Origin: a virus
Strand: one strand, 5' to 3'
Virus record (IMG/VR): IMGVR_UViG_3300018080_000170
Span: 1-64,000 of that record
DNA: 64,000 nt
Positions 2,851-14,208 of the stretch are shown piece after piece. The notes beneath the pieces are model-generated. The model was not told the origin of the DNA. It searched no databases and was given only the letters and a program-made list of their open reading frames with translations. A program made the translations under genes and the position numbers. Each line of letters starts with the position of its first letter. Position 1 is the first letter of the stretch.

Positions 2851-4836
2851 ATGGGTAAAAAGGATCAAGACACCTTTAAATTTTACGTACCTGTTGAGCT
2901 CGCCAAAGGTGAGAGCGAAGATGAATGGCGCGTAAAAGGAATCGCTTCAACTGGGGATAGAGATTTACAAGGTGAAACGGTTAGCCAGTCCGGACTCGAT
3001 ATAAGTCCGCTGAAACAAGGGAAGGGACTTTTTAATAACGATCATCAAAAGGGTCCCGAAAACATTTTAGGTAAGATTGATTATGCCCAAAACACTATGA
3101 ATGGTTTGTATGTTGAGGGCTATCTTTTTAAACATCAGCCCCGGGCCCAGGCTTTCTTTAATATTATGCGTTCATTGAAGAAGGCGGATAAAAATAGAGT
3201 TCAAATGTCCATTGAAGGAAAGATTATTAAACGCAGTGATATTGATAAAAGTGTTATAGCGCGAGCGCGAGTAGAAAAAGTTGCTTTAACCCTTGATCCA
3301 GTTAATACCAGTACTTATGCAGAAATTGCTAAGTCATTGAGCGTTGAGAGGCTTGAAGTTGATGAGTGTGCTGACACCATTGAAGAAGTTGAGAAGTCCT
3401 CTGAGATGGATAACGTCGCCGAGGGCGATGTGGAGAAGATTCAAGCTGAAGGCGCAACTAAAGCAGATAAAATCCAAAGTGGCGAAAAGAAAAAAAAGAA
3501 AAAGGACGAAAAAGTAGAGCTTTCTACTTATGATGATAATCCAACCCTTGCTAAGTCGGAGGATGGCGAGCTATTAGGATATTCGGATAAGGATTCTTCC
3601 CTGGCTAGTCCTTCAGTGGCTAGTCAACCGGTTGAAGGGGATGTCGCCTCCTCCGCCCCTTCACCGGATACGGTTGAAAAAGGTGGGGTCGGTAGTGGTC
3701 GATATAAGCATAAAAGTAAAATTCATGCTAAAGTCCATCGTCATTTAAAAGGTACGGTGGGGCATGCCCCTCTCAATAATAGAGAATATCAAAGACGAGT
3801 GGCTCATGCTATGGGCGATGAATCTCCAACCAAAGTCTCTCAGGCAATTGCTCAAGATCTTATTGAAAGCGGTCATGTAGGTAGGGCTCCTAAGTCTGGC
3901 GGTGGAGCAGTTCATGTTGTATTAAATAAAAGTGAAACGGTTTTAGTTAAAGCGCATAAGTTGGAGATGTTGTTAAGTCTTGTTAAGGGCGGTCCCGGTT
4001 CTGGGAGAAAAAAGAAAGGCTCAAGAAATACCAAAAAAAAGAGCAAAAAAAGACTTGAAGATGCATTAAGCTTTCATCGTAAAAAAGTTGTACAAGCTCG
4101 CAAAGCAGGAAATCCTAGCGATATTCTTGCCCATCAACATGCGGTGGAAACATATAAAAGAATGCTTGGTAAGTCTGAATTAGTAGAAAAAGGTGGACCT
4201 GGTAGTGGCAGAAAACATGGTAAAGGAACATCAGGAGCGGCAATTCAGAGACGAGCGTTTGCTGATAGAGGTCCTGGAAGAATTTCCGGAGATAAGGGGA
4301 TTGCATTAAAGCTATTTCGTGAACAAAAGAAAAAGAATCCTAAGAAATATAACATAAGTGAGGCTGAGTTTAGTAGGCGTTGGGATAAGAAACATAGTAT
4401 GAAGAAGGCTCGCCCTAAAGGAGTTGGGTCTAGAGGCGGAAAAGTTGTTGGTTATACGCGCTCGGGTAAGCCTAAATATCAAAAGATTCTAAATGCTGCT
4501 CACAAGATGGAAGGTTCTTATGGGGCTTACAATCACGAGGCCAGAGGAACCCATAGCGGAAGACCGATTGTAACCGAGAGAGATAAAAAGCTTATTGATA
4601 AACTTCATAGCCACGGTCTTAGTGAACATGAGAAAGTTGTTTTTTATGATTCAAAGCGCGGTCGTCATGCAATGGACGATATGATGGGAGCCGGCCTCTA
4701 TACAGATGAAATGATCAAGTTATTTAAAGAAGATCTTAAGGACTGGGATCTTAATCACGAGCATAAAGCAAAACGCGCTACTAAGGAGTCGAGTGAAAAG
4801 GAACCAGAACCCAATAAGTATCTTGATACTCGATAA
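2851..4836 (+). CDS. Prohead protease with long modular Lys-rich C-terminal extension
   Basis: Residues 1-165 match the phage prohead serine protease family: DEWRVKGIAST, FNNDH with catalytic-type H65, GLYVEGYLF, and VQMSIEG with likely nucleophile S120. Such proteases cleave scaffold and capsid N-termini inside the prohead. The family is usually about 200 residues; this protein has 661. The extension contains an acidic linker, a poly-Lys stretch (213-218) and three boundaries, VEKGGVGSGR (275-284), LVKGGPGSGR (377-386) and VEKGGPGSGR (445-454), each starting a basic module. A GSRGGK...SGKPKY motif follows at 526-543. The modules may be processed into small internal head proteins (inference). 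The start follows TGGAGAAATA. Confidence 0.85.
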   Translation: MGKKDQDTFKFYVPVELAKGESEDEWRVKGIASTGDRDLQGETVSQSGLDISPLKQGKGLFNNDHQKGPENILGKIDYAQNTMNGLYVEGYLFKHQPRAQAFFNIMRSLKKADKNRVQMSIEGKIIKRSDIDKSVIARARVEKVALTLDPVNTSTYAEIAKSLSVERLEVDECADTIEEVEKSSEMDNVAEGDVEKIQAEGATKADKIQSGEKKKKKKDEKVELSTYDDNPTLAKSEDGELLGYSDKDSSLASPSVASQPVEGDVASSAPSPDTVEKGGVGSGRYKHKSKIHAKVHRHLKGTVGHAPLNNREYQRRVAHAMGDESPTKVSQAIAQDLIESGHVGRAPKSGGGAVHVVLNKSETVLVKAHKLEMLLSLVKGGPGSGRKKKGSRNTKKKSKKRLEDALSFHRKKVVQARKAGNPSDILAHQHAVETYKRMLGKSELVEKGGPGSGRKHGKGTSGAAIQRRAFADRGPGRISGDKGIALKLFREQKKKNPKKYNISEAEFSRRWDKKHSMKKARPKGVGSRGGKVVGYTRSGKPKYQKILNAAHKMEGSYGAYNHEARGTHSGRPIVTERDKKLIDKLHSHGLSEHEKVVFYDSKRGRHAMDDMMGAGLYTDEMIKLFKEDLKDWDLNHEHKAKRATKESSEKEPEPNKYLDTR

Positions 4837-4847
4837 AGGATTAAACA

Positions 4848-6083
4848 ATGGCAGATAAAGAAAAAGATAAACCGAAATCTAAATTGAAGTATGCCAAGCG
4901 AACCGGAACGCCTGGTAATTATGTTTACTGGCATGAGGATGAGAAGAAAGCGATGGTTCCAGGAGATCGTCCAAAAAATGTCGACGAGATTAATTCTAAA
5001 CCTCGTTACGAGCATCATCCTCACGACGAACGCGCCACCGATCAAGTAGGACATAAAAAGGCGGCTGAAGAGATGGGATCGGAGGAGTTGGAAGCTAAAC
5101 CAGAGAAGCCGAAAAAGCCATCCAAAAAAGAATCTGAAACAAAGATGATGGCGCTGAAGAAAAAGGGCCCTTCAATAGAAGATAGAGTAGCGGCCATTGA
5201 GAAAGAGCATGCTAAAATGGCAAAGAAGGACAAAAGCTTTATGGGAGAGAAAAACGCGGATAAAGAAAAGCTTTTGAAAGAGGGAAAGAAGGATCTTAAA
5301 AAGAAGTGCATGAAAAAGTCCGCTGACAATGGCGAAGACGAGTATGTAGAGATTGACAGAGAGAAGCTTGAGAAGATTCTTGATTTGGCAAGAAAACATC
5401 TTAGCAAGGGTGGACCCGGGTCTGGCAAGAAGAAAGGCGCTGGTCCAGTTGATTGGGATGAGAAGTTTAAAGAGCGCATGAGAGCTCGGAAAGAAGCTCG
5501 CAATCAGGCCGCTCTTGGTAAGATTTCAGGGAAAGTGAAAGAGAGAGAGGAAGCTGATAAAAAGTTTGCCGAGCGTATGAAAGAGCGCAAAGAAAAGCGA
5601 AATCAAGCTGCAGCCGGCAGGGTTAGAGAGGGGATGATGTCGGATAAGCAGCGAAAGCGCTTTGGACAGGTAGAGCAAGCCAATAAAGAAAAGAAACAGA
5701 GAATTCTTGCTCGCCTTCGATCGTCAGCTAAGGAGCAGATGAAAAAAGCCAGTGGCGAAGGTTCAAGAGGCGGAAAAATTATTGGTCGAACAAAGTCAGG
5801 AAAGCCGATTTATGACAAAGCCGACCATCCAGCTCATAAGAAATTTACTTCTCAGGATCATAGGGACGCTGCAGGGCTTCATCATGGTAAAGCTTCGTGG
5901 GCCGGAGCTGGTAGTTCTGAAGAGAATAAGACTAAAGCGAAGCATCATAGAGAGCAGCGCGAGAAGCATAAAGATATGGAAATGCCTCGACACACTCGCA
6001 ATCTTATAGAAGATAAGTATAAACAGAAATATCCAAAAAGAATTGTTCCTGAATTTGTTAAAAGGCCAAGAGAAACTTATTAA
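4848..6083 (+). CDS. Basic head-associated protein with KGGPGSGK and GSRGGK motifs
   Basis: This 411-residue, very Lys-rich and His-rich protein lies directly after the protease and shares two of its motifs: KGGPGSGK (187-194) and GSRGGKIIGRTKSGKPIY (305-322). Residues 20-28 (GTPGNYVYW) resemble a short motif seen in other phage head proteins. Residues 204-225 and 236-258 are an internal duplication (KF-x-ERM-x-x-RKE-x-RNQAA). Low complexity suggests an extended, perhaps DNA-binding, protein packed in the head or consumed during maturation. The stop overlaps the next start (TAATG). Function inferred from context. Confidence 0.7.
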   Translation: MADKEKDKPKSKLKYAKRTGTPGNYVYWHEDEKKAMVPGDRPKNVDEINSKPRYEHHPHDERATDQVGHKKAAEEMGSEELEAKPEKPKKPSKKESETKMMALKKKGPSIEDRVAAIEKEHAKMAKKDKSFMGEKNADKEKLLKEGKKDLKKKCMKKSADNGEDEYVEIDREKLEKILDLARKHLSKGGPGSGKKKGAGPVDWDEKFKERMRARKEARNQAALGKISGKVKEREEADKKFAERMKERKEKRNQAAAGRVREGMMSDKQRKRFGQVEQANKEKKQRILARLRSSAKEQMKKASGEGSRGGKIIGRTKSGKPIYDKADHPAHKKFTSQDHRDAAGLHHGKASWAGAGSSEENKTKAKHHREQREKHKDMEMPRHTRNLIEDKYKQKYPKRIVPEFVKRPRETY

Positions 6084-6928
6084 TGAAAATTGAAAAAGCA
6101 AAACTAGAACAACTTCTTAAGTTGCTTAAAAAAGCCCTCGCCATTGGTGCGGGCGATTCTAGTTATGCTAACACGTTGCCAGGGGACATGAGCGGGGCGG
6201 TTGCTAATACAACTGAGAGTCTTGCTGGTGGAAAGAAAAAGAAAAAGCGCAAACAGAAGCGTAAAGGTGAGGAGATTGAGAAGGCTGTTAATCAAGTAAT
6301 CGAAGAAGATAGCGAGTTGTTAGTAAGATTGGCAAAGGGAGAAAAGATCCCTGGTGGTAAGGCTGCTGGAAGGCCCGATAGTGACTTTGATTCAAAAGAG
6401 CTAGCTATGGGGATCAAAGTCGAAATGGAGCATACAAAGGATAAGGCAAAGGCTAAAGAGATCGCAAAAGATCATTTGGCAGAATTTGCTGATTATTACA
6501 CGCGCCTGAAGGCAATGGAAAAGAAGGCTGAAAAGGAAAAGAAAGAGGTTAAAAAGGCCGCCATCGTTGTCAAAGATCCTAAAGATAGGGATAGAGCATT
6601 TGAGATCGAGACGACTAAAGAAGGTAAGAAAAAACTTGTTCTACCTCGTCCTCAGGATGGAAAAGGCTCAATGCAAGGCGAACGCGGTAGGGGAATGGGG
6701 TCTGGTAAAGGAAAGAATAAGATTAAGGGATGTAAGCTTCTTAATGCAAATGATGATATATCAAGACAAAAGAGGAAGAAAATTTTTAAATCAATTTTAA
6801 AGGAGGTTAAAAATAGGTTCCCGGAAATGGATTATCAAACAATAGTTGATATTACCATGAAAAGATGGGAAAAGAGACTTCTAGAGGAAGATTCAGATAC
6901 GACGTCTGAGTCCGATAACAAACAATAA
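6083..6928 (+). CDS. DUF5661 protein with capsid-like N-terminal motif
   Basis: Residues about 95-155 (GIKVEMEHT...AKEIAKDHLAEFADYYTRL) match the DUF5661 family of unknown function, often found in phage head regions. Residues 28-47, YANTLPGDMSGAVANTTESL, match residues 34-53 of the major capsid protein with identical spacing. A KKKKKRKQKRK stretch follows. The C-terminus is helical and acidic. It lies between the basic head protein and the scaffold-like gene, so a head assembly role is likely. The shared motif may mark a protease site or a common docking segment (inference). Confidence 0.75.
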   Translation: MKIEKAKLEQLLKLLKKALAIGAGDSSYANTLPGDMSGAVANTTESLAGGKKKKKRKQKRKGEEIEKAVNQVIEEDSELLVRLAKGEKIPGGKAAGRPDSDFDSKELAMGIKVEMEHTKDKAKAKEIAKDHLAEFADYYTRLKAMEKKAEKEKKEVKKAAIVVKDPKDRDRAFEIETTKEGKKKLVLPRPQDGKGSMQGERGRGMGSGKGKNKIKGCKLLNANDDISRQKRKKIFKSILKEVKNRFPEMDYQTIVDITMKRWEKRLLEEDSDTTSESDNKQ

Positions 6929-6944
6929 AAGGAGAAAGGTGAAC

Positions 6945-7577
6945 ATGTCTGATCTTGAGAAGACCAAGCTTGAAGAGCAGGAAAAGGTCGAAGAGACTGT
7001 GACTGACGAAGAGCTTGAGAAATCCATCGATGATCTTATCGATGAGTACCTCGAGAGCGAAGAGAAGGCTGAGGCCGATTCCGCTGACGAAGAGACCGGC
7101 GAAGAGCAGGTTGAGAAGTCCGAGGAAGGAGCCGAGGAAGAGCCTGAAGAGACTCCTGAATCTATCGAAATCTCAGTTGAAGATCTCCAGTTGCTGAAAG
7201 CTGCAAAAGAGCAGAAGGCAAAGGAAGAGTCAGCTAAGAAGGAAGAGGAATTCAAGAAATCAATTCAGGACATCGTTCAAGAGGAAATCAAAGATCTCCG
7301 AGAAGCAGTCAGTGAGCTGACTAAAGCCCTTCGTGCACCCAAGTCTAGCCGCCAGTCGGTTAGTAAGGTGAACGAGGTTAAGAAGTCATTTCATACGGCT
7401 GCTGAGAACGAAGGGACAAAGAAGATTTCTAAGTCCCAGGTTCTTGACACAATGGAAGAGCTTTGGAAGGCCGGAAAAATTTCCGGTGCCTCACTAAGTG
7501 GTTATGAAGCAACCTCTCAGATTCTTGATCCCAAGGATCGCGAAGTTGTTGAAAATGCAATCAGAGAGTCAAAGTAA
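6945..7577 (+). CDS. Acidic coiled-coil scaffold-like protein
   Basis: A 210-residue, strongly acidic, helical protein just upstream of the major capsid gene, the usual place of a capsid scaffold. Residues 1-90 are mostly Glu with VEKS and LEKS motifs; a coiled coil (about 80-130) and a folded C-terminal helical part follow. ATG 6945 is about ten bases from AAAGGAG; a GTG at 6939 is a less likely start. It would direct shell assembly and then be degraded by the prohead protease. No sequence family recognised; the call rests on composition and position. Confidence 0.65.
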   Translation: MSDLEKTKLEEQEKVEETVTDEELEKSIDDLIDEYLESEEKAEADSADEETGEEQVEKSEEGAEEEPEETPESIEISVEDLQLLKAAKEQKAKEESAKKEEEFKKSIQDIVQEEIKDLREAVSELTKALRAPKSSRQSVSKVNEVKKSFHTAAENEGTKKISKSQVLDTMEELWKAGKISGASLSGYEATSQILDPKDREVVENAIRESK

Positions 7578-7591
7578 GGGAGTATTAATCA

Positions 7592-9058
7592 ATGGCAAAT
7601 AACAACCCTTCTTCGTTGACTGGTTTTGGAGCCGATGCTCCCCAGCTTCTCGAAGAGATCACCAAAGCGTTAAGCTTTGCGAATCAAAATTATTCGGATA
7701 CGTTGCCGGGTGATTTTACAGGTGCTCCCGCTCTTCAGGTTGAATCACTCGACAAGACTCTGAGAGTGGTTACCCATGAGCAAAAGCATCTGCTTCTTTG
7801 GAATGATATTCCGAAGACTCCTGCATACAACACGGTTGAGCAGGCCAATACGAATAACAGTTATGGCGCACAGATTCCAGCCTTCTTTCAGATGGCAGGA
7901 GCTCCAGAAACTGCGGATTCTGGCTACGATCGAAATGTGGTGCAGATTAAGTACTTGGGCGTTCAGAAACAGATCAATCATGACGTTATGCTGGTTAGGC
8001 AAGCTCATGGTCCGATCGTTCAAAGAGAGATCAAAAATGGAGCTCTCTGGATTCTGGCACAGCTCGAGCGCGCTCTCTTTTCAGCCGACAGTTCCATCAA
8101 TGGCCTAGAGTTTGATGGTATTGATAAACAGGTTGAGGATAAAGAGGGTCAGGCTGAGTTTAAAGCTCAGGCCTTTGATGGCTACAATGTGCTGAGTGGC
8201 GCAGATACCATCATTCTCGATAAGCGAAATGATCTCCAGAGTGGAGAGGTTTTGGATGAGGAAATCCTCGAAGAGGCCGCTCTCGTTCAGGCGAACAATT
8301 TCGGTATGTGCACGGATATGTACATGGATACGAAAGCTCACAGTGACTTCAGCCGTGCTTTCTATGCTAAGGAGCGCATCAATACGCTCGGTATGGAAGG
8401 AAAAGCTGGTTATGTTGTGAAGCAGTTCGTTTCCGGTTCCGGCACTTTTAATCTTAAGTCTGGTGTGTTCCAGCGACCTCGCCGAATCCCGTTGGCGGCA
8501 GCTGTTTCATCTGAATCAGCTCCTACCCTTCAGGACGCGAATGCTGGTGACAATAGCCCGGCTTCTGGCGATTCTCAGTTTGCGGCCGTTGACGCTGGTC
8601 AGTACCAGTATAAGGCTTCTGCTGTTTATGCTGATGGTGAAACGTTGGCAGGCGGCGCGAAGGCTGTTACTCCGGCAGCTGGCGACAAAGTCGTGCTAGA
8701 TATTCTGCCAGGTTCGAACCCCAGTGGCGTTCAGTATTTCAATATCTTTCGTTCACCAAAAGGTAGCGCGGCTACTTTTGAGTTTATCGGTCGTGTGAAA
8801 CCTGAGAATTTCCACGCTGGTGATGGTGATTTTCGTGATCTGGATATTGATCTTAACGCTGATATGCCAGGTTTGTCTCGCGCTTATCTCATGCAGATGA
8901 ACGAAGACAACCTTGCGTTCAAACAGCTTCTTACTATGATGAAGATCGATCTTGCATTGCTTGGTACGAACTATCGATGGATGCAGCTGCTTTATGGTGC
9001 GCTTCATATGTATACACCTCGCAAGAATTGTATCGTGAAGAACATCGGGCGTTCATAA
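7592..9058 (+). CDS. Major capsid protein (HK97-like fold)
   Basis: A 488-residue protein of the expected size, position and style for a myovirus major capsid protein; it forms the head shell. The N-terminal region (1-60) holds YSDTLPGDFTGAPALQVESL at 34-53, shared with the DUF5661 protein. The core includes a long helix, PIVQREIKNGALWILAQLERALF, typical of the spine helix. Residues about 305-425 look like an inserted Ig or fibronectin-type domain (YQYKASAVYADGE, VQYFNIFRS) that probably projects from the surface. Codon choice is more regular than in flanking small genes, fitting high expression. A strong terminator follows. Confidence 0.85.
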   Translation: MANNNPSSLTGFGADAPQLLEEITKALSFANQNYSDTLPGDFTGAPALQVESLDKTLRVVTHEQKHLLLWNDIPKTPAYNTVEQANTNNSYGAQIPAFFQMAGAPETADSGYDRNVVQIKYLGVQKQINHDVMLVRQAHGPIVQREIKNGALWILAQLERALFSADSSINGLEFDGIDKQVEDKEGQAEFKAQAFDGYNVLSGADTIILDKRNDLQSGEVLDEEILEEAALVQANNFGMCTDMYMDTKAHSDFSRAFYAKERINTLGMEGKAGYVVKQFVSGSGTFNLKSGVFQRPRRIPLAAAVSSESAPTLQDANAGDNSPASGDSQFAAVDAGQYQYKASAVYADGETLAGGAKAVTPAAGDKVVLDILPGSNPSGVQYFNIFRSPKGSAATFEFIGRVKPENFHAGDGDFRDLDIDLNADMPGLSRAYLMQMNEDNLAFKQLLTMMKIDLALLGTNYRWMQLLYGALHMYTPRKNCIVKNIGRS

Positions 9059-13781: not shown

Positions 13782-13933
13782 AGAAATATCGATATCGTTT
13801 TGGCGAAGACGATTATTGGACGACTGTTGATAACCCGTGGGATGTTGATCTCAGTTATATGTTCATAGGGGGAGTTTGTATAGTTGAGTGTATCGAGGTG
13901 GACGAAGAGAAGGAGGAGAGTGCTGGCGAGTAG
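13778..13933 (+). CDS. Small hypothetical protein ending inside the tRNA gene
   Basis: A GTG overlapping the previous stop opens 51 codons (VKKYRYRFGEDDYW...). The TAG at 13931-13933 lies within the tRNA, so the last ten bases are shared with the tRNA acceptor stem. It is acidic at the C-terminus. Coupling and composition support it. Confidence 0.55.
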   Translation: MKKYRYRFGEDDYWTTVDNPWDVDLSYMFIGGVCIVECIEVDEEKEESAGE

Positions 13934-13996
13934 TTCAGTTGGTAGAACGCCTGGCTGTTAACCAGGAAGTCGCAGGTTCGAGCCCTGCCTCGCCAG
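13924..13996 (+). tRNA. tRNA-Asn (anticodon GTT)
   Basis: A complete cloverleaf. Acceptor stem TGGCGAG/CTCGCCA is perfect (13924-13930/13989-13995) with discriminator G at 13996. The anticodon stem is CCTGG/CCAGG with loop CTGTTAA and anticodon GTT at 13957-13959. The T arm is GCAGG-TTCGAGC-CCTGC. CCA is not encoded in full (the DNA continues CAG), so host enzymes must add it. It is the only tRNA seen in the window. Confidence 0.95.
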
Positions 13997-14019
13997 CAGT
14001 TTTTAGAGGAGGAAAGGAA

Positions 14020-14208
14020 ATGACAAGCAAGAGTTTTCTTACCGTCTCTCTGACGAAGACAGAGATTCAAGTTTTCGATGTAACGCGAGGGGAGTTTGTT
14101 CTTAAGGTCCCGCGTGAGGGTAACGAGGACTTGATTGAGCGTTTTGGTCTCAGCGAGGAGAGCGCCACACTTCAGATCATCGAGAACACAGAGGAGGAGA
14201 TTGCATGA
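14020..14208 (+). CDS. Small hypothetical protein, 62 residues
   Basis: The ATG at 14020 follows AGAGGAGGAAAGG just after the tRNA. The same frame is open upstream through the tRNA but has no start signal there. The product is acidic and beta-rich. Coupled to the next gene by ATGA. Confidence 0.6.
   Translation: MTSKSFLTVSLTKTEIQVFDVTRGEFVLKVPREGNEDLIERFGLSEESATLQIIENTEEEIA

Follow-up and report, generated by a model that had tools for sequence, protein, structure and literature searches.

In SPO1, A511 and phi812 (Herelleviridae) the head genes run in the order protease, scaffold, capsid. The window, by which we mean the whole 64,000-nucleotide stretch of viral DNA analysed here, has the same order, with a capsid protein of the same family and fold. 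In these three phages maturation takes place at a K|[SA] site, and a copy of the N-terminal arm of the capsid protein is present on the tail of the prohead protease; the corresponding site in the window is a predicted one. Unlike these phages, the window encodes its arm-bearing tail in an ORF of its own, into which a DUF5661 domain is inserted; its protease has a long, cassette-rich extension.

In phage T4, the capsid targeting sequence (CTS), a short segment common to several head proteins, directs them into the prohead (PMC9958956, PMC5694885). The likeness to the present case, a short segment common to head proteins beside a prohead-protease site, is one of working only. The T4 CTS is an N-terminal leader of ~10–20 residues and is removed by cleavage, whereas the part shared here lies mainly on the product side. 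Unlike the T4 CTS, the SPO1-like segment is held in common with the major capsid protein and is located on the protease tail. By analogy, the T4 capsid targeting sequences are the nearest functional precedent.

The herpesvirus protease (assemblin, UL26/UL26.5) enters the capsid via a C-terminal extension and is freed by self-cleavage. When the protease of one relative of the window phage (L040) was modelled, the closest structures were the herpesvirus proteases (Foldseek probability 0.97–1.00, best E 1.1e-3). In herpesviruses the extension reproduces the scaffold and binds the capsid protein; here it is the N-terminus of the capsid protein itself that is reproduced. The capsid fold of HK97 (gp4/gp5) is also found in the window. 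At its known maturation site, HK97 gp5 reads NK|SLGS. The HK97 protease, used as a control, contained no arm copy (score 29, against a shuffle maximum of 45).

Features of the head-gene region of the window, with the basis of each assignment
Feature	Position	Strand	Basis
Prohead (head maturation) protease ORF	2851..4836	+	phrog_1028, E=1.4e-35
ORF between protease and DUF5661 ORF	4848..6083	+	KGGPGSGK and GSRGGK cassettes
'DUF5661 protein': arm copy, K-rich stretch, DUF5661 domain, protease C-tail	6083..6928	+	PF18905; arm and C-tail homology
N-terminal helix, residues 1–17, to predicted K17|A18 site (6131–6136)	6083..6133	+	aligned with MCP helix and K25|A26
Capsid N-arm copy, residues 28–47	6164..6223	+	relatives-only protease-copy HMM, E=0.006
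DUF5661 domain, residues 105–148	6395..6526	+	PF18905, E=1.8e-12
Segment homologous to relatives' protease C-terminal tail, residues 228–264	6764..6874	+	Smith-Waterman and HMM
Scaffold-like protein (start may be ATG 6945)	6939..7577	+	gene position as in SPO1, A511
Major capsid protein (MCP), HK97 fold, SPO1-type	7592..9058	+	phrog_752 and AF2 model
Capsid propeptide, residues 1–25, predicted helix 17–31	7592..7666	+	K25 invariant; A511/phi812 mature ends
Predicted capsid cleavage K25|A26	7664–7669	+	inferred from A511 and phi812
Capsid N-arm motif, residues 34–53, start of mature protein, predicted flexible	7691..7750	+	sequence and AF2 model

The shared segment reads YANTLPGDMSGAVANTTESL in the DUF5661 ORF (residues 28–47, nt 6164–6223) and YSDTLPGDFTGAPALQVESL in the major capsid protein (MCP; residues 34–53, nt 7691–7750). 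The first-pass annotation had pointed to a motif common to these two positions with 11 identities; the motif was confirmed, ungapped, and the count is 12 of 20. As had also been claimed, the likeness continues upstream into a helix ending K-A-L (LLKLLKKAL/LLEEITKAL), and downstream it extends to ESL. When the two proteins were compared by BLASTP, E was 1e-6. When the MCP was searched by tblastn against the 70-kb record of its own phage, the DUF5661 ORF was the sole match besides the MCP itself (E = 6.6e-4). MCP residues 10–60 scored 76 against the DUF5661 ORF; when the same residues were composition-shuffled and searched over all other window ORFs, the best score was 39.9 ± 3.7, with a maximum of 52 in 300 shuffles. 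By all three measures the similarity stood well above chance. It was confined to the first ~60 residues of the MCP, and no further arm copies were found elsewhere among the ORFs of the window. The scaffold-like ORF (6939–7577) separates the two genes, as originally described.

In a profile search, the window MCP matched the SPO1-type family phrog_752 with E=1.2e-66 over residues 10–486, and it was 31% identical to the SPO1 capsid protein. Its AF2 model (pLDDT 75) was closest to the SPO1 capsid 9vel (Z 32.3, 3.1 Å rmsd over 384 residues), and gave Z 24.6 against phi812 (5lii). The window phage has an SPO1-like (Herelleviridae-type) capsid. The annotated mature peptide of the capsid protein of the Listeria phage A511 starts at S24, after K23, and the phi812 capsid chain in PDB entry 9row starts at S25, after K24; the K|[SA] cut of the relatives lies 8–15 residues upstream of the motif. 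Conservation of the motif in related capsids had been set beforehand as a point on which the claim could fail. Among 30 related capsids, V50-E51-S52-L53 was invariant or nearly so, and the lysine aligned with K25 was invariant. From this lysine and the mature ends of A511 and phi812, cleavage is predicted at K25|A26, and the window propeptide is likely cut there. In the AF2 model the capsid arm was predicted to be flexible, behind a helix. Almost certainly, the motif forms the N-arm of the capsid protein after maturation, on the mature side of the predicted K|A cut.

The motif as a cleavage site in itself was considered and rejected: A511 and phi812 are cut at K|S, upstream of it. The early suggestion of a prohead protease site was thus right as to proximity and wrong as to the exact position, which is likely K25|A26 for the MCP and K17|A18 for the DUF5661 ORF.

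The DUF5661 domain (PF18905; residues 105–148) was matched with 47.8 bits against a curated cut-off of 27, and the motif lies outside it. The ORF has a capsid-arm copy behind K|[AS], like most relatives' protease tails, and a cut is likely at K17|A18, just upstream of the motif. Its C-tail gave a Smith-Waterman score of 69 with the protease tail of L026, the nearest non-identical relative, a value reached by none of 2000 shuffles (maximum 54). When an HMM of the nearest 15 protease tails was searched over all ORFs of all loci, the C-tail was found with E=6e-5, the next match outside the family being at E=1.7; the window tail was missed by a general HMM of the tails of all phages. In L026 both the arm and the C-tail are on the protease, in the order seen in the DUF5661 ORF, and the DUF5661 domain is absent from that protease. 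The presence of both homologies in the L026 order thus indicates a protease tail encoded as a separate gene; very probably, the DUF5661 ORF is a prohead-protease tail that was split off, with the DUF5661 domain inserted between arm and C-tail. This arrangement is shared by two close relatives (L001 and L002), the only other phages in which a free-standing DUF5661 tail was found. When annotated phages were searched with the ORF by tblastn, the sole match was to a DUF5661-type stretch in a 735-kb uncultured phage (two accessions).

The window protease matched the head maturation protease profile phrog_1028 (E=1.4e-35, residues 3–162), with a catalytic domain of about residues 1–165. The Pfam S78 profile gave no match in this ORF, matching the SPO1 and A511 proteases only. 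The long tail carries KGG[VP]GSGR and GSRGGK cassettes and, unlike the tails of most relatives, has no arm copy (score 26, against a shuffle mean of 29.7). No Pfam, PHROG or NCBIfam family was found for the ORF that follows (4848..6083). This ORF shares one base with the DUF5661 ORF (TAATG, window 6081–6085), and the overlap suggests coupled translation of the detached tail.

The cassettes, KGG[VP]GSGR and GSRGGK..GxTxSGKPxY, each stand behind a lysine, and occur both in the tail of the protease and in the ORF that follows it (window 3679–4250, 4429, 5406 and 5763; L001 3325–6515). Their order and number differ in L001 (93% capsid identity), as if shuffled. A cysteine-containing cassette, CTPKEKRCVKEVKKESPGVNPYAVCRASIGGTT, is found at L001 5298–6515 where window ORF 4848–6083 has a KGGPGSGK cassette. 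Further along the window, ORF 13888–14208 overlaps a tRNA-Asn gene (13924–13997); the first residues, VVQLVERLAVNQEVAGSSPASPAV, are probably tRNA sequence read as codons, which makes the start of this ORF doubtful.

The window scaffold contained 11 K[SA] dipeptides against 5.1 expected (p=0.005), an excess that a substrate with many K|[SA] cuts should show, and the scaffolds of most relatives were also rich in K[SA]; K|[SA] therefore fits as a general maturation site. When the proteases were aligned, H63 and S122, the catalytic residues (S78 family), were invariant, and the sites K163|S164 and K201|[AS] were seen to flank a linker ahead of the arm. The L040 model showed an ordered catalytic domain, a helix up to K201, a disordered arm and then two helices. 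Capsid and protease had the same layout in the predicted models, a helix ending in K|A being followed by the disordered arm and then by the next element.

A capsid-arm copy was found on the C-terminal protease tail of most relatives, behind a K|[SA] site of its own; it was clear in 17 of 19 annotated phages. The comparison of tail copy with capsid arm was DKSLEAGYEVDPEKMEGGDVFRKESL against NKALEAGHTVNPLDLEGGGAFRVESL for SPO1 (BLASTP E=2e-10) and MKSWTTGHGTTPDTQVNAGALRRESL against LKSFTTGYGITPDTQTDAGALRREFL for A511 (BLASTP E=1e-11), and the phi812 tail also bears a copy. In these three phages and most others, the tail copy resembles the capsid arm of the same phage. In the Thermus phage Lalka27a (L008) a weak arm-like match was seen at protease residues ~205–250 (score 58, against a shuffle maximum of 47). 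The protease-copy HMM matched it with E=3e-8, a value that is not independent, as the Lalka27a copy was in the training set. The match hints that the arm copy extends beyond the Herelleviridae.

In most of 80 further metagenomic viral loci, retrieved by means of the capsid alignment, the copy lay within the protease ORF, 1.5–3 kb ahead of the capsid gene. With arm HMMs built solely from relatives, the number of matching ORFs was exactly two in 78 of 100 loci; counted by distinct capsid arms, there were two matching ORFs for 65 of 85, one for 20, and never three. No arm copy was seen in Bacteroides phage DAC16 (one of the 19 annotated phages), L102 or L071, and the arm is therefore not indispensable. 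The L102 protease (4992–5735, 248 aa) has no detectable arm copy, yet the capsid arm of this phage is typical. Looked for in other phage heads, as proposed in the first-pass annotation, the motif was present in related capsids and on the protease tails of most relatives; that annotation had recognized the second copy, but missed its place on the relatives' prohead protease and the character of the DUF5661 ORF as a detached tail.

For the 80 phages with an identified protease, the scores of own arm against own tail summed to 5123, compared with 3335 ± 113 (maximum 3824) when partners were permuted (20000 permutations). After removal of capsid-body and protease-domain distances, partial Mantel r was 0.13 (p = 0.0006). 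The effect is small, and the tracking of arm and tail mostly follows shared ancestry. It may be noted that pairs had been picked by their own score in the first co-variation test; when this was repeated free of such selection, the effect persisted and was smaller.

With moderate confidence, we propose that imitation of the capsid N-arm allows the protease tail to enter the growing head; the steps from docking onward we infer. The tail would use its capsid-like helix and arm to bind the partner of the capsid N-terminus, either the scaffold core or a neighbouring capsid subunit, and would thereby co-assemble with the immature shell. In most phages the attached protease would be brought in along with it. 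Once active, the protease would cut its own tail as well as the scaffold and the capsid protein at K|[SA], and the remaining tail fragment would resemble the mature capsid protein at its N-terminus. The tail of the window phage, being separate, would have to act unattached to the catalytic domain; the latter has no arm and therefore would have to enter the head another way. A docking segment for a common partner had been one of the earlier guesses. As a putative role, it is the best-supported functional reading of the sequences.

The shared segment could instead be a recognition or pseudo-substrate element, whose helix and arm bind an exosite of the protease and position K|A, or keep the enzyme inactive until assembly. 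A K-[small]-[hydrophobic] site is indeed found ahead of all 52 capsid arms and of 46 of the 52 copies, the catalytic domain runs directly into the arm copy in A511 and phi812, and the N-terminus of T4 gp21 keeps the active site of this protein blocked until it has cleaved itself (PMC9958956). Against this, the scaffolds are rich in K[SA], yet the arm HMM matched only the capsid and one other ORF, never the scaffold. Since the scaffold presumably undergoes cutting with no arm of its own, cutting probably does not depend on the arm. Moreover, conservation extends up to ~30 residues into the product side. The window has its copy on a protein distinct from the protease; one-chain inhibition is thereby ruled out there and is not a general explanation. 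We regard a recognition element as unlikely. A somewhat smaller chance is given to the tail being a minor structural head protein, its cleaved fragment staying in the virion, with the arm anchoring it to the inner shell and a K-rich stretch perhaps contacting DNA. The separate tail genes of the window and of L001/L002 would fit this directly, and in many copies the arm is succeeded by a K-rich stretch, although those of A511 and phi812 have none. Mass spectrometry has identified the protease in purified virions of Listeria phage CKA15 (PMC12282133) and Staphylococcus phages fRuSau02 (PMC5618024) and JS1 (PMC12977511), which favours both a structural role and the proposed recruitment; these reports do not specify the part or fragment concerned. 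As the maturation protease cuts after lysine like trypsin, trypsin-based proteomics would miss the processing. A structural role of the tail is compatible with its recruitment by arm imitation.

A trace of capsid duplication had also been suggested at the outset, and the closeness of the DUF5661 and capsid genes could be read in that way, the second copy being a functionless product of recent duplication or gene conversion of the start of the capsid gene. When codons were compared at identical residues of arm and copy, 366 of 908 (0.40) agreed overall, against 428.9 (0.47) predicted from codon usage alone; in the window, 4 of 13 agreed, against 4.9. Recent DNA copying was rejected on this test, and the copy is retained across very distant phages; we consider such an origin very improbable. 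Since the codons match no better than expected, the evidence points to selection on the protein as what keeps the likeness. What may survive of the duplication idea is the origin of the tail, which possibly goes back to a partial copy of the capsid gene made long ago. The segment is short, and a chance resemblance or a generic low-complexity linker might be thought of; the tblastn, HMM, shuffle and BLASTP results and the recurrence in dozens of phages leave that a negligible chance.

Returning to recruitment through the arm, we found no description of the protease–capsid similarity in the open-access papers searched, although it may have been published elsewhere, nor any of how the prohead protease of SPO1/phage K-type phages is recruited. 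These phages include therapy phages of Staphylococcus and Listeria. The capsid-arm copy on the tail provides a concrete, testable recruitment route and can be seen in genomes that became public years ago. Tentatively, SPO1-like proteases may enter the immature head by mimicry of the capsid N-arm, the mimic co-evolving with each phage's own shell protein; in the window phage it would then be a free-standing assembly protein, apart from the catalytic domain. With its tail split from the protease, this phage would constitute a natural experiment.
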